Shown piece after piece: positions 47,419 through 61,267 of a stretch of DNA of 64,000 nucleotides (positions are counted from its first letter, which is position 1; each line of letters begins with the position of its first letter). The notes beneath the pieces were generated by a model. That model was not told the DNA's origin. It did not search any database and was given only the letters and a program-made list of their open reading frames with translations. The translations under genes were made by a program, and so were the position numbers. The stretch is from Sulfurovum sp. XGS-02 (lineage in GTDB: Bacteria > Campylobacterota > Campylobacteria > Campylobacterales > Sulfurovaceae): positions 1,612,001 through 1,676,000 of the forward strand of contig NZ_CP093312.1 of NCBI RefSeq assembly GCF_023213175.1, in the 5' to 3' direction.

Positions 47419-47494
47419 GACCTTTTAGCTCAGTTGGTAGAGCAACTCCCTTTTAAGGAGTGGGCCCATGGTTCGAATCCATGAAGGGTCACCA
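47419..47494 (+). tRNA. tRNA-Lys(TTT), copy 1
   Basis: Complete cloverleaf of 76 bases with encoded CCA. Acceptor stem GACCTTT pairs with AAGGGTC. The anticodon loop CTTTTAA gives TTT. The T arm has GTTCGAAT. Identical to the copy at 47601-47676. Confidence 0.97.
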
Positions 47495-47512
47495 CTATTA
47501 TTTTTTATAGGT

Positions 47513-47589
47513 GCGGTGGTAGTTCAGTTGGTTAGAATACCTGCCTGTCACGCAGGGGGTCGCGAGTTCGAGTCTCGTCCACCGCGCCA
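47513..47589 (+). tRNA. tRNA-Asp(GTC), copy 1
   Basis: 77 bases with encoded CCA. Acceptor GCGGTGG pairs with CCACCGC; discriminator G; anticodon loop CTGTCAC gives GTC. Identical to the copy at 48035-48111. Confidence 0.97.
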
Positions 47590-47600
47590 TAATATTTTAT

Positions 47601-47676
47601 GACCTTTTAGCTCAGTTGGTAGAGCAACTCCCTTTTAAGGAGTGGGCCCATGGTTCGAATCCATGAAGGGTCACCA
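47601..47676 (+). tRNA. tRNA-Lys(TTT), copy 2
   Basis: Same 76-base sequence as the first Lys gene, including CCA. The spacer from the Asp gene is 11 bases. Confidence 0.97.
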
Positions 47677-47691
47677 CTATATATAATGTTT

Positions 47692-47767
47692 GGTCGCTTA
47701 GCTCAGTTGGTAGAGCGCTACCCTTACAAGGTAGATGTCACAAGTTCGAGTCTTGTAGCGACCACCA
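47692..47767 (+). tRNA. tRNA-Val(TAC), copy 1
   Basis: 76 bases with CCA. Acceptor GGTCGCT pairs with AGCGACC; anticodon loop CTTACAA gives TAC. Identical to the copy at 47902-47977. Confidence 0.97.
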
Positions 47768-47798
47768 TTTTTGACAATTTATGTTTATGGTTCTTGAT

Positions 47799-47874
47799 GA
47801 CCCTTTCATCTAGTGGCCAAGGATATTACGTTTTCAACGTAAAAACAGAGGTTCAAATCCTTTAGGGGTCGCCA
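47799..47874 (+). tRNA. tRNA-Glu(TTC)
   Basis: 76 bases with CCA. Acceptor GACCCTT pairs with AGGGGTC; anticodon loop TTTTCAA gives TTC. The only single-copy member of the array. Confidence 0.95.
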
Positions 47875-47901
47875 ATCTTTTCCAAATAAACATTAAAATA
47901 T

Positions 47902-47977
47902 GGTCGCTTAGCTCAGTTGGTAGAGCGCTACCCTTACAAGGTAGATGTCACAAGTTCGAGTCTTGTAGCGACCACCA
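47902..47977 (+). tRNA. tRNA-Val(TAC), copy 2
   Basis: Same 76-base sequence as the first Val gene, including CCA. Spacer of 27 bases from the Glu gene. Confidence 0.97.
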
Positions 47978-48034
47978 TGTACATTTAAGTAAATTAATGT
48001 ACAATTCTTTTCAACCATATATATGGTCTTAGGT

Positions 48035-48111
48035 GCGGTGGTAGTTCAGTTGGTTAGAATACCTGCCTGTCACGCAGGGGGTCGCGAGTTCGAGTCTCGT
48101 CCACCGCGCCA
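48035..48111 (+). tRNA. tRNA-Asp(GTC), copy 2
   Basis: Same 77-base sequence as the first Asp gene. Last tRNA of the array; an AT-rich spacer without a clear terminator follows. Confidence 0.97.
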
Positions 48112-50601: not shown

Positions 50602-51675
50602 TTAGTTTCTATTTAAACAGTTAAGGTCATCAAATGCCCTCTCGAGTCTTGCAACCGTTGACTCTTCTGCAGCACGTAACCATTTTCTTGGATCATAATA
50701 CTTTTTGTTCGGTTTGTCCTCGCCCTCAGGGTTACCGATCTGCCCCTGCAAGTAGTCATGATACTTGGCAACATAGGTACGTACACCATCCCAGAATGAC
50801 CACTGTGTATCGGTATCTATGTTCATTTTGATCACACCGTAACTGATCGCTTCTCTGATGTCAGAGAGTTCAGAACCTGAACCACCGTGGAAAACAAAAT
50901 TCACAGGTTTTTTGGCTGTATTGTACTTCTCTTCGATATAGGATTGAGAGTTATCAAGTATCTTCGGTGTAAGGGTCACATTCCCAGGTTTATACACCCC
51001 GTGTACATTTCCAAAAGAAGCAGCAATAGTGAACTTGTCAGAGATCTTTGAAAGTTCTTCATACGCATACGCTACCTCTTCAGGCTGAGTATAGAGCAGT
51101 GCATTATCGATATGTGTATTATCAACCCCGTCTTCTTCTCCGCCTGTGACACCGAGTTCTATCTCAAGTGTCATGCCCATCTTAGACATACGCTCCAAAT
51201 AGACCTTACATGTAGCGATATTCTCTTCTATAGGTTCTTCAGAGAGGTCTATCATATGAGAAGAGAAAAGAGGAACCCCGTGTACCTTGTAATGTGCTTC
51301 ACTTGCATCCAGCAGTGCATCGATCCAAGGCAGAAGTTTTCTTGCTGCATGGTCTGTATGAAGTACAACAGGTATACCATAGGCTTTTGCCACCGTATGT
51401 ACGTGCTGTGCACCTGAGATACACCCTAATATCGCTGCCTCGTCTGAAGGCAGTCCTTTACCTGCATAGTATGCACCACCGCCATTTGAAAACTGGACCA
51501 TGATAGGAGAGTTCACTTTCTTTGCAGCTTCGAGTACAGCATTCACAGAAGAGGTACTTACCACGTTCACAGCAGGTAAAGCAAACCCGTCCTCTTTTGC
51601 AATTTTAAATAACTTTTGAAGGTCATCCCCCGTCACTACACCTGCCGGTACTACATCTAGAACTTTTGTAGACAT
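50602..51675 (-). CDS. fba: Class II fructose-bisphosphate aldolase
   Basis: Zinc-dependent aldolase of glycolysis and gluconeogenesis, 357 residues. Zinc and catalytic motifs are PVVLHTDHAARK (His-x-Asp-His), ELGVTGGEEDGVDN, and VFHGGSGS. Length marks it as class IIA, like E. coli FbaA. Monocistronic-looking; its downstream hairpin separates it from the PLP gene. Confidence 0.96.
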   Translation of the reverse strand: MSTKVLDVVPAGVVTGDDLQKLFKIAKEDGFALPAVNVVSTSSVNAVLEAAKKVNSPIMVQFSNGGGAYYAGKGLPSDEAAILGCISGAQHVHTVAKAYGIPVVLHTDHAARKLLPWIDALLDASEAHYKVHGVPLFSSHMIDLSEEPIEENIATCKVYLERMSKMGMTLEIELGVTGGEEDGVDNTHIDNALLYTQPEEVAYAYEELSKISDKFTIAASFGNVHGVYKPGNVTLTPKILDNSQSYIEEKYNTAKKPVNFVFHGGSGSELSDIREAISYGVIKMNIDTDTQWSFWDGVRTYVAKYHDYLQGQIGNPEGEDKPNKKYYDPRKWLRAAEESTVARLERAFDDLNCLNRN

Positions 51676-51697: not shown

Positions 51698-52183
51698 TTA
51701 TTTTATTTTAATGTTTGCATTTTTCATCAACTGACCCACAACTTTTTCCTGTGCAAGTTGCATCTTAATATTATTTTTCACTACATCAAATGCCGGTATA
51801 GTTTGTGTGCTTTTTGCTTCTTTGGCTGCTTTTTTCATCTTGTCATATGCATCTTGTGCTTCTTTATCCGTCACTTCAGTGGATAACATTTTTTTCTGCA
51901 TCCAGTAACCTGCGAGTGCAGCTTCTTTTTCTTTATCCGTTAAAGATTTGTTTGATTCTGCCACTAACAATTTATCTAAAGCCATTCTTTCAATCAGTTG
52001 TTTTTTACCGTCAGCTGGAAGTTTTTCCCACGTCATCTTGCCTTTTGTCAGTGTATTAAGCACACTGTTTGCTTCTTCAACTGTGATTGTCGTACCATTC
52101 ACTGTACCTGCAGCCGTTGCAGCTACTGCATGATGTGTTGTGAATGCCAACGCGAGACCTAATATAACAAGAGTTTTTTTCAT
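51698..52183 (-). CDS. SurA-N-like periplasmic protein without a parvulin domain, paralogue 1
   Basis: Exported protein of 161 residues, signal peptide ending near AVAATA. The mature part is all-helical and matches the N- and C-terminal chaperone helices of SurA/PEB4: AAGTVNGTTITVEEANSVL at the start and IPAFDVVKNNIKMQLAQEKVVGQL at the end. The peptidyl-prolyl isomerase domain is missing. It lies in a tandem of three relatives, next to a larger paralogue and a full-length PEB4-like protein. A chaperone role is inferred. Confidence 0.8.
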   Translation of the reverse strand: MKKTLVILGLALAFTTHHAVAATAAGTVNGTTITVEEANSVLNTLTKGKMTWEKLPADGKKQLIERMALDKLLVAESNKSLTDKEKEAALAGYWMQKKMLSTEVTDKEAQDAYDKMKKAAKEAKSTQTIPAFDVVKNNIKMQLAQEKVVGQLMKNANIKIK

Positions 52184-52261
52184 TCTCTATTTCCTTTTGT
52201 ATTTGTATAATGTTGTGTGTATTCTACCTAATATTTACCAATTACTCATTAATAAACGTGC

Positions 52262-52867
52262 TTACAATACTTCTATCTTTGCATCTTTTACAAGTTTATC
52301 GACCAGGGTCTTCTCAATGATCTGGATTTTCAGTTTATCCTTGATCGTTTCAAATGATGGGATATTTTGGGTAGCATTGTTCTCTTCGGCTTGCTGTTTC
52401 AACTGATTATATACGGTCAACGCCTCTTCATCCGTGACGTTGATCTTACGTCCTTCTTTTTGCATCCATGCACGTGTATAGACTGACTGTTTCTCTTTTT
52501 CAGTCAACTCTTTTTGTGCAGCATCCAGTACTATGATAGGAAGTACCAGCTCTTGAATAAGACGTGGACGTTGCTCTGGCGGCAAGTGATCAAAATTAGT
52601 CACTTTCCCCTGTGTACGCTGTTCAAGATAACTGTCCGCCTCTTTTTTGATGATCTTATGTCCATTGACCGTAGCGATCACTGCTTTAGAAGATCTTGTT
52701 TTTGGCTGTTTAGGTTTTGCATCTAGGTTGATACTACCCAGGTCCACCACTCCTGATGTCTCTTTTGTGTTTAACATATCTGTTAAACTGTTTTTTAAAT
52801 CATCTGCAGATATTGAAGTTATCATTAAGACAGACGATACCCCCAACATCATAAAAATTTTTGTCAT
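52262..52867 (-). CDS. SurA-N-like periplasmic protein without a parvulin domain, paralogue 2
   Basis: Exported 201-residue protein with the same fold as its downstream neighbour. After a signal peptide (about 1-21) a linker of some 40 residues precedes VIATVNGHKIIKKEADSYLEQR. It ends IPSFETIKDKLKIQIIEKTLVDKLVKDAKIEVL, closely parallel to the 161-residue paralogue. No parvulin domain. A 78-base gap separates it from paralogue 1 and 31 bases from the PEB4-like gene, so all three are probably cotranscribed. Confidence 0.8.
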   Translation of the reverse strand: MTKIFMMLGVSSVLMITSISADDLKNSLTDMLNTKETSGVVDLGSINLDAKPKQPKTRSSKAVIATVNGHKIIKKEADSYLEQRTQGKVTNFDHLPPEQRPRLIQELVLPIIVLDAAQKELTEKEKQSVYTRAWMQKEGRKINVTDEEALTVYNQLKQQAEENNATQNIPSFETIKDKLKIQIIEKTLVDKLVKDAKIEVL

Positions 52868-52898
52868 ACTCTTTTCCCTATTTTAATGGCTAAAATTA

Positions 52899-53744
52899 CT
52901 ATTTGGTTGTATTTGCTTCTTCTGTCATATCAACAATAGTAGCTTTACTTTTAAGTTCTTTTGCGACCTCTTTAATTTTAACAGTAAACTGCTGTTGCTT
53001 TAGTAAAGCAATGATATTATCTTTCACTTTCTCATAAGGCGCCGGTTTTGCTTCCGTTTTTGTTTCAAGGTAGATCACGTGGTAACCAAACTTTGTTTTC
53101 ACAGGCTTTGTCGTTATTTTACCATTCTCAAGTGCCCACACTGCTTCTGAAAACTCTGGAACCATCTGTCCTTTACTGAATGTACCAAGATCCCCACCAT
53201 TTGGTCCGGAAGGTCCTGTAGATTTAGATTTAGCCAATTCGATGAACTTGGTTTTGAGCGCCTCGCCTTTCAGTGGCTTTAGCGTATCAATGATATCTTG
53301 TGCATCTTTTTCATTTTCAAGTAAAATGTGTCTTGCACGCATAGAAGCTTTTTCCATGAACTTTTCACTGTTTTTATCATAAAATGCTTTTGCTTCACTC
53401 TCACTTACAATAGCATTATCCAACTGTTCTTTCATCCACATGTTTACTAAAAGTTCATCTTTGATCTTTTCCATGTTTCTTTTAAATTCAGGTTTTTTGT
53501 CTATACCCTCTTGTGCTGCAAGCTCTGTAAAAAGGACTTTTTCTACCAGTCTATCTGTAACCATTTTTTTCTCAGCAGGTGGAAGTTCCATGAAGTTTGC
53601 CTGAGGTGCAGAGGCAGATACAAATGCTTGTGCATCCTGCTTCGTGATATTTTTGCCATTGACTGTTATAAGTATGTCTGACGCCACTACTGATGTTGCC
53701 ATGACAGCCACAGCAAGAAGTGAAGTTTTTGCGAGTTTTAACAT
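52899..53744 (-). CDS. Periplasmic peptidyl-prolyl isomerase, PEB4/SurA-like
   Basis: Full-length member of the tandem, 281 residues. A signal peptide ends near VVASD. An N-terminal helical chaperone domain starts ILITVNGKNITKQDAQAF. The parvulin domain spans about 135-235 (RARHILLENEKDAQDI, GGDLGTFSKGQMVPEF, TKFGYHVIYLE). C-terminal helices resemble the paralogues. Homologous to Campylobacter PEB4 (Cj0596) and Helicobacter HP0175, which assist outer-membrane protein folding. Confidence 0.92.
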   Translation of the reverse strand: MLKLAKTSLLAVAVMATSVVASDILITVNGKNITKQDAQAFVSASAPQANFMELPPAEKKMVTDRLVEKVLFTELAAQEGIDKKPEFKRNMEKIKDELLVNMWMKEQLDNAIVSESEAKAFYDKNSEKFMEKASMRARHILLENEKDAQDIIDTLKPLKGEALKTKFIELAKSKSTGPSGPNGGDLGTFSKGQMVPEFSEAVWALENGKITTKPVKTKFGYHVIYLETKTEAKPAPYEKVKDNIIALLKQQQFTVKIKEVAKELKSKATIVDMTEEANTTK

Positions 53745-60814: not shown

Positions 60815-61267
60815 ATGGGAAAAACAATTAAAAACACTATTACAGGTAAAGAGATCACAAAGCCGGATCCTGTAGATATAGAAGTGCCATTTGATGGTGG
60901 TGTGATGATCACGGAGACTGACCCGGCAGGTATCATCACCTATGCCAACCGTAAATTTCGTGATCTTACCGGTTATACGAAAGAAGAACTCATCGGCTCA
61001 CCACACAGTATAAACAGACATCCAGATATGCCAAAAGCTGCCTTCAAAGAGTTATGGGAGACAATAAAAGGTGGAAACTACTGGGAAGGTTTTGTCAGAA
61101 ATATGACAAGTGAAGGGAAATATTACAATGTTGTTGTATGGATAAAACCCAAGTTGGATGATGATGGCAATATCATCGGATATATTGCAGGAAGAAAGAT
61201 CCCTGATAAAGACCTCATGCAAAGAGCTTTCGACAAATACAAGGTCATGAAGCATGATGAAGTGTAG
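60815..61267 (+). CDS. Single PAS-domain protein, CetB/Aer-like sensor
   Basis: A 150-residue protein made almost entirely of one PAS domain. ITYANRKFRDLTGYTKEELIG and NRHPDMPKAAFKELWETIK followed by GNYWEGFVRN match the FAD-binding PAS of Aer and Campylobacter CetB, which sense redox state for energy taxis. There is no membrane or output domain, as in CetB, which pairs with a separate transducer. No such transducer is adjacent. The stop codon lies in a 9-bp hairpin. Confidence 0.88.
   Translation: MGKTIKNTITGKEITKPDPVDIEVPFDGGVMITETDPAGIITYANRKFRDLTGYTKEELIGSPHSINRHPDMPKAAFKELWETIKGGNYWEGFVRNMTSEGKYYNVVVWIKPKLDDDGNIIGYIAGRKIPDKDLMQRAFDKYKVMKHDEV

Follow-up and report, generated by a model that had tools for sequence, protein, structure and literature searches.

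Isomerase-free relatives of the periplasmic chaperone PEB4 in Sulfurovum and the repeated fusion of their genes

Results

A row of three PEB4-like genes and fba

The window, that is, the whole stretch of 64,000 nucleotides of Sulfurovum sp. XGS-02 that was analysed (NZ_CP093312.1, positions 1,612,001 to 1,676,000), contains a row of genes that reads along the minus strand as peb4, short2, short1 and fba, with gaps of 31, 78 and 22 bases (Table 1). An ORF check recovered the first three frames where a sequence-only reading had seen three tandem SurA/PEB4-like chaperones, two of them without the isomerase domain, and the ORFs, Pfam and homology searches confirmed that description. The last gene, judged by its sequence, is presumably that of fructose-bisphosphate aldolase.

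Table 1. Features of the peb4-short2-short1-fba row (window coordinates)
Feature	Position	Strand	Basis
peb4, PEB4/HP0175-type SurA-like peptidyl-prolyl isomerase, 281 aa	52899..53744	-	phmmer and Pfam
PEB4 parvulin domain, aa 139-227, missing from short1 and short2	53064..53330	-	Pfam PF00639
PEB4 C-terminal chaperone helix, about aa 229-271; both short proteins end in a homologue of it	52932..53060	-	tail profile
short2, chaperone domain only, 201 aa: domain aa 64-201 behind a signal peptide (by eye) and a tail	52262..52867	-	HMM, hhalign
short2 N-terminal tail, aa 22-63, conserved, probably unstructured; none on short1	52679..52804	-	alignment, tail counts
short2/short1 intergenic gap, 78 bases	52184..52261	.	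coordinates
short1, chaperone domain only, 161 aa: domain aa 25-161 behind a signal peptide (aa 1-21, by eye)	51698..52183	-	HMM, hhalign, AlphaFold2
fba, presumed fructose-bisphosphate aldolase, 22 bases behind short1	50602..51675	-	ORF coordinates; conserved position in loci

When the row was compared across loci, peb4 was upstream of a short gene in all 113 loci with both, and fba followed a short gene on the same strand within at most 134 bases in all 112 loci with both. A promoter scan found no excess of promoter-like sites (9, against a mean of 10.1 in shuffled sequence), and a terminator scan found 4 terminator-like sites against 2.1 in shuffles; within the row, the minus strand had none of these. 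In five comparisons dN/dS was 0.12-0.23 for the short genes, 0.09-0.12 for peb4 and 0.03-0.05 for fba. The short genes are clearly under purifying selection, which is uninformative about their partners.

Two other features of the window were recorded. A row of seven tRNA genes with repeats (Lys x2, Asp x2, Val x2, Glu x1) lies at 47419-48111 on the plus strand, and on the same strand 60662-60737 matches the c-di-GMP-I-GGC riboswitch (Rfam RF03167) with 63.6 bits, against a gathering threshold of 59. About 80 bases downstream of the riboswitch match, at 60815, is a 150-aa ORF that looks PAS-sensor-like by eye.

The short proteins are relatives of PEB4 without the isomerase

The peb4 product had its best PDB matches in 3rfw (phmmer E 1.7e-47) and 5ez1 (E 2e-42), and among the three proteins it alone carried a parvulin domain (Pfam Rotamase, E 7.6e-19); Pfam listed no Rotamase family for short1 or short2. 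Because they have no parvulin domain, each of the two is a PEB4 derivative and not a PEB4. Among nine further isomerase-free proteins, five gave a sub-threshold Rotamase_2 match that covered the model's first 32-62 positions only, and the one at locus L102 was narrowly below the cut-off (26.4 versus 27).

In pairwise BLASTP, short1 and short2 were 37% identical (E 6e-31) and both matched PEB4 (E 9e-8 for short1, 5e-7 for short2), whose chaperone part is 23-27% identical to them. Profile-profile comparison with PEB4 gave a probability of 98.6% (E 5.1e-16) for short1 and 98.7% (E 1.9e-16) for short2 in hhalign. PDB profile searches returned PEB4 3rfw as the only match with E below 0.01, to which short2 added HP0175 6bhf; beyond these there were chance-level rows only (E 0.61 and 0.25). 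Against the HMM of the domain itself, short1 scored 205.5 bits and short2 125.2 bits (aa 64-201). No Pfam or NCBIfam family was above cut-off for either protein: short1 reached 17.1 bits against SurA_N (PF09312, cut-off 30.8), and short2 had no SurA_N listing, with SurA_N_3 at 19.0 (cut-off 27.2) and SurA_N_2 at 14.4 (cut-off 28.5). Routine annotation would therefore probably call both proteins hypothetical.

The sequence-only reading had based the kinship on a shared helix start, NG(x)xITxxEA, and a shared ending, IPxFxxxKxxIKxQL. These motifs are literal in short1 (NGTTITVEEA, ending IPAFDVVKNNIKMQL) but PEB4 (NGKNITKQDA, ending PAPYEKVKDNIIALL) and short2 (NGHKIIKKEA, ending IPSFETIKDKLKIQI) deviate from them, so the form common to all three is looser. 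Since the profile-profile alignments span the N-part, the C-terminal helix was checked separately with a tail profile built from the last 38 residues of isomerase-free domains, at a threshold of 5 bits. This profile matched 93 of 119 PEB4 ORFs, 0 of 119 tail-shuffled versions and 0 of 1091 background ORFs; the shuffled-tail and background controls rule out that the endings are alike by chance. In the PEB4 ORFs the matches fell at about aa 229-262, and in the best 25 of the 93 hits the match was directly behind the parvulin domain. Each part of the PEB4 chaperone domain has its homologue in short1 and in short2, and a short loop takes the place of the parvulin domain.

Predicted structures

The AlphaFold2 model of short1 had a pLDDT of 88.1, with 136 of 161 residues at or above 90, and its best PDB match was again 3rfw (Foldseek E 0.017, probability 0.98). 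In VIA-align, residues 23-161 of the model aligned with PEB4 3rfw (Z 8.0, 136 residues, rmsd 8.3), and the alignment with HP0175 6bhf was alike (Z 6.5). SurA chains aligned with the first half of the model only (residues 22-81 for 1m5y; one row to 103), and PrsA and Cj1289 chains matched the second half without any swap (Z 5-6). Fold scores were modest throughout: Foldseek E was 0.017 and 0.07, and for proteins made of helices a Z below about 13 counts as weak. AlphaFold may also have learnt PEB4. Trees, homology searches and models all make the short proteins relatives of PEB4 with a SurA-like fold, so that neither of the two outcomes that would have overturned the sequence-only reading, a phylogeny unrelated to PEB4 or models lacking that fold, occurred.

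In other genomes the two short genes are one (see below), and a model of such a fused protein (345 aa) had a pLDDT of 81.6, which rose to about 90 when the first 60 residues were set aside; residues 1-55, where the counterpart of the short2 tail lies, were below 50. Residues 62-345 matched the SurA core (25-426) with Z 8.8 for 8pz2_F (148 of 158 residues, rmsd 6.0) and Z 8.6 for 1m5y_A, and the match to PEB4 3rfw covered only 207-265 (Z 7.2). A match to the closed core of SurA, which is monomeric, is expected if the N-part of domain 1 and the C-part of domain 2 form one lobe. Likewise, a swapped pair predicts the contrast between short1, which aligns at full length with PEB4 protomers but by half with SurA, and the fused protein, which aligns with the SurA core. 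The fused model also has strands at the joint (200-205 and 208-212) and at the end (342-344), and the C-terminal strand is not listed in the short1 model. As read from the aligned ranges and the secondary structure of the models, the two domains would exchange strands.

Distribution and architectures

A short2 query had a hit, possibly PEB4 itself, in 74 of 78 genomes of the genus and 83 of 100 of the family, Sulfurovaceae. Loci were then sampled from genomes picked for having a match (120 loci from 119 genomes, one being on two contigs). At least one isomerase-free ORF was present in 115 of the 120, some cut by contig ends; in the other five (four in g38, one in g37) peb4 directly adjoins fba. 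Named Sulfurovum genomes account for 49 of the loci, 9 of them with a fused gene. In other families of the order, no isomerase-free gene was found at 20 PEB4 loci (19 genomes, 3-4 kb each), one of which has a split PEB4.

Within the genus (74 loci including the window), 30 loci have two genes (short1 is cut by a contig end in two and broken in one), 21 have a single fused gene, 9 have short1 beside a short2 of about 295 aa with a repeated N-half, 8 have short1 alone and 6 have one gene of about 203 aa. In 7 of the 8 short1-only genomes the short2 query gave a single match, which was short1 itself; G111 has a second match. The repeated-N loci (L025, L028, L038, L047, L057, L064, L083, L085 and L086) form one branch of the genus (96/90), and the extra N-half of their short2 would be an orphan half-domain that may need the C-part of a partner. 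Other genera of the family mostly have a single gene of 154-264 aa. The sole g36 genome is also fused (L098, cut at the 5' end), and all 10 g40 loci have a repeated middle helix.

Several frames at the sampled loci departed from the usual form. Short1 at L050 (3476-4004) and peb4 at L090 (2020-2864) and L195 (1060-1873) are each broken into two ORFs, by a frameshift or an assembly error, and the fba ORF at L065 (986-2779) has 597 aa instead of the usual 357 or so.

The N-terminal tail of short2 (ADxLKxSL...VxLxxL) was found also in the fused, the single 203-aa and the g34 proteins. A strict pattern matched 25 of 30 short2, 19 of 21 fused, 6 of 6 single 203-aa, 4 of 8 g34 and 8 of 9 repeated-N proteins, and where it missed the tail was visible by eye. 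The pattern was absent from all 38 short1 ORFs (two of which are pieces of one broken gene), all 8 short1-only proteins and all 32 other single-gene proteins. This tail looks like a linear docking motif. In addition, a C-terminal LysM was detected by motif in three other genera of the family (2 of 2 loci in g35, 2 of 2 in g39 and 5 of 10 in g40, or 9 of 14: L097, L102, L108, L110, L126, L130, L134, L138 and L139), and Pfam confirmed it in 4 of 4 checked of these nine. The LysM tails and the conserved, probably unstructured tail of short2 would both suit proteins that have ceased to be general chaperones and serve as adaptors or scaffolds, positioning clients or PEB4 at the outer membrane or cell wall. 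This is the least probable of the explanations weighed here, as short1 has neither LysM nor N-tail and the part that was retained is the client-cradling domain.

Loss of the isomerase preceded the duplication

A chaperone-domain tree with 81 rows included 26 isomerase-free domains sampled from the family, and these formed one clade (100/100). In a tree of 163 domains, with g40 and cut domains left out, short2, the N halves of fused proteins and the repeated-N proteins were on one side of a branch with support 99, and short1, the C halves and the short1-only proteins formed one group with support 92. These trees imply that the isomerase was lost first and that duplication came later. The duplication that gave short1 and short2 is thus placed by the trees inside the genus, in a gene already without the isomerase. 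The sequence-only reading had proposed duplication followed by domain loss. Its isomerase-free relatives of PEB4 are borne out by the phylogeny of the helical domain, but the order has to be reversed; the trees rule out a recent triplication followed by two separate losses. The short clade lies outside all sampled PEB4s (100/100), which may reflect age or a long branch, and its derivation from the family's own PEB4 is conjectural.

Isomerase loss is not confined to this family. Isomerase-free relatives were present in 4 of 4 genomes of g66, which belongs to another family of the order (L215-L218), and the surrounding 3 kb or so contained neither fba nor another PEB4-like ORF; at L215 and L216 a neighbour of the gene looks TonB-like by eye. 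In a third family, one genome (G323, L219) has an isomerase-free relative beside fba and its PEB4 on another contig. In the tree the relatives from g66 and G323 lie towards PEB4 and away from the short clade of the family, with the g66 group placed only approximately, and this placement suggests three separate losses. At least two more short frames, in G344 and G246, were among the matches listed.

Fusion of short2 and short1

A new observation of this study is that the two isomerase-free genes have been joined into one protein in several lineages. The fused protein of the 21 genus loci has about 345 aa with the short2 half first. The intergenic gap and the signal peptide of short1 are gone, and a linker of 4-7 residues remains, of which there are four types (GNTS; DANMI/NANMI; a longer type such as PNSDT; STDKT). 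In the 163-domain tree the N halves of all 22 fused proteins grouped with short2 and the C halves of all 22 with short1.

A PEB4+FBA tree of 78 loci, with 20 of the 21 fused loci (L022 has no PEB4), needed four changes for the fused state, all four forced by starred branches, and a single fusion inherited by all was rejected (one clade, p-AU 3.05e-6). The 163-domain tree joins two of the fused clades by their C halves (92), and its starred branches force no more than two changes for the C halves and three for the N halves. As the domain tree forces fewer changes, the claim made here is at least three fusions, with four likely. The number of state changes alone cannot separate fusion from splitting. 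Fusion is preferred because signal peptides are visible by eye both on short1 where it is a separate gene and on the single-gene proteins of other genera, and splitting would have to recreate one each time.

When neighbouring genes are repeatedly fused at the same joint and in the same order, their products are often partners. However, the fusion of neighbours possibly reflects adjacency alone, and short1 and short2 could be independent homodimeric holdases with different clients, their fusions being neutral deletions between adjacent genes. That short1 stands alone in eight genus loci on three branches, and that the other genera with the gene mostly have a single copy, fits such homodimers. 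Against neutral deletion, the smaller gap in 25 of 28 listed two-gene loci is the one between peb4 and short2 (27 of 37 with the repeated-N loci, where the short2-short1 gap is smaller in 7 of 9 and there is no fusion), yet no peb4-neighbour fusion was found in 114 loci (113 fetched plus the window; the longest PEB4 ORF has 333 aa). Furthermore, order and linker length are alike in all 22 fused proteins, and the fused model fits one closed SurA core. We regard independent homodimers as unlikely, though a serious alternative. The repeated fusion of short2 with short1, and never of the closer peb4 with short2, which serve as a built-in control since both have signal peptides (by eye) and belong to this fold family, suggests instead that short1 and short2 work as a pair.

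Rate covariation did not favour that pair. At 26 separate-gene loci the partial r was 0.41 between short1 and short2 and 0.40 and 0.42 with PEB4, so that short1-short2 did not stand out as specific partners in this mirror-tree test. Equal covariation, along with the same gene row and fold family, would also fit mixed dimers of the short proteins with PEB4 that tune the isomerase dose. In fused genes (n=20) the short2 half still covaried with PEB4, though weakly (r 0.28; 1 of 999 shuffles as high), but the short1 half no longer followed it (r 0.10; 127 of 999 as high). With the chaperone parts just 23-27% identical and a PEB4-short fusion in none of the 114 loci, dimers with PEB4 seem distinctly improbable. 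The sequence-only reading had suggested that the chaperone-only variants may form mixed complexes in the periplasm; repeated fusion favours this for short1 with short2, and for PEB4 as partner the missing fusions stand against the equal covariation.

Discussion

The data presented in this study make it somewhat probable that short1 and short2 form an isomerase-free periplasmic holdase that works as an intertwined pair. In the proposed model, PEB4-derived holdases would have shed the prolyl-isomerase domain and retained the helical domain that cradles clients. The two partners would exchange their C-terminal helices and strands in the manner of the swapped homodimer of PEB4. Short1 with short2 would then make one intertwined pair, a single gene would give a homodimer and a fusion would give a single-chain pseudo-dimer. 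Such a pair may hold unfolded outer-membrane or periplasmic clients beside PEB4. The pair is not obligatory, as the eight genus loci with short1 alone and the six with a single gene of about 203 aa indicate.

More tentatively, with the chances somewhat against it, the architectures may form a series from homodimer to heterodimer to single chain within one genus, in which intertwined subunits were welded at least three times, with a LysM-tethered single-gene form elsewhere in the family. If this is true, the series would include a periplasmic chaperone that occurs naturally and works without prolyl isomerisation, and in other genera of the family the LysM tail would tether the single-gene form to peptidoglycan.

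Besides PEB4, the genome of the window has an open frame of 281 aa that contains SurA_N, one of 492 aa that is PpiD-like, and a parvulin of about 100 aa. No Skp/OmpH was matched in it at E 0.001, and the control matches in E. coli; the isomerase-free holdase possibly takes a Skp-like place.

The purpose of the isomerase domains in SurA-type chaperones is unsettled. SurA without them still binds clients (PMC2635482), and more than 99% of SurA homologues keep an isomerase domain (PMC11401910). Here, the gene row of one family combines a complete PEB4 with a derivative that lacks the isomerase. The natural one-gene, two-gene and fused versions make the role of the isomerase domain directly testable, as well as a possible route from swapped dimer to heterodimer to single chain. 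Among the titles and abstract openings listed by literature searches, none described isomerase-free or fused proteins of the PEB4 type from Sulfurovum.

Several known systems can be compared with the short proteins. The fused model is weakly like trigger factor (3gty, Z 6.6) and MPN555 (1zxj, Z 4.4), which resembles trigger factor. Both have a helical cradle, but the likeness is a fold match of the fused model only, and neither had a sequence match in the PDB profile searches. The SurA-like periplasmic chaperones Cj1289 (SalC) and PpiD of Campylobacterota (PMC5368265) keep the parvulin domain, unlike the short proteins, and the genome of the window has its own candidates elsewhere. Core-only SurA homologues, 73 of 14,244 with 49 of the 73 in Halomonas (PMC11401910), share with the short proteins a SurA-like core without isomerase domains, and some Alphaproteobacteria such as Brucella have a SurA with one or no PPIase domain (PMC2635482). 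However, the core-only homologues count as SurA, whereas the short proteins adjoin an intact PEB4, score below the SurA_N cut-off and are often tandem in the genus. The closest relatives are PEB4 (Cj0596) of Campylobacter jejuni, described as a domain-swapped dimer (PMC5368265), and HP0175 of Helicobacter pylori. These are the best PDB sequence match of the short proteins and the best fold match of short1, and they have the same chaperone domain of N-part and C-terminal helix. The short proteins differ from them in having no parvulin domain, in being duplicated and in being fused into one chain in several lineages.
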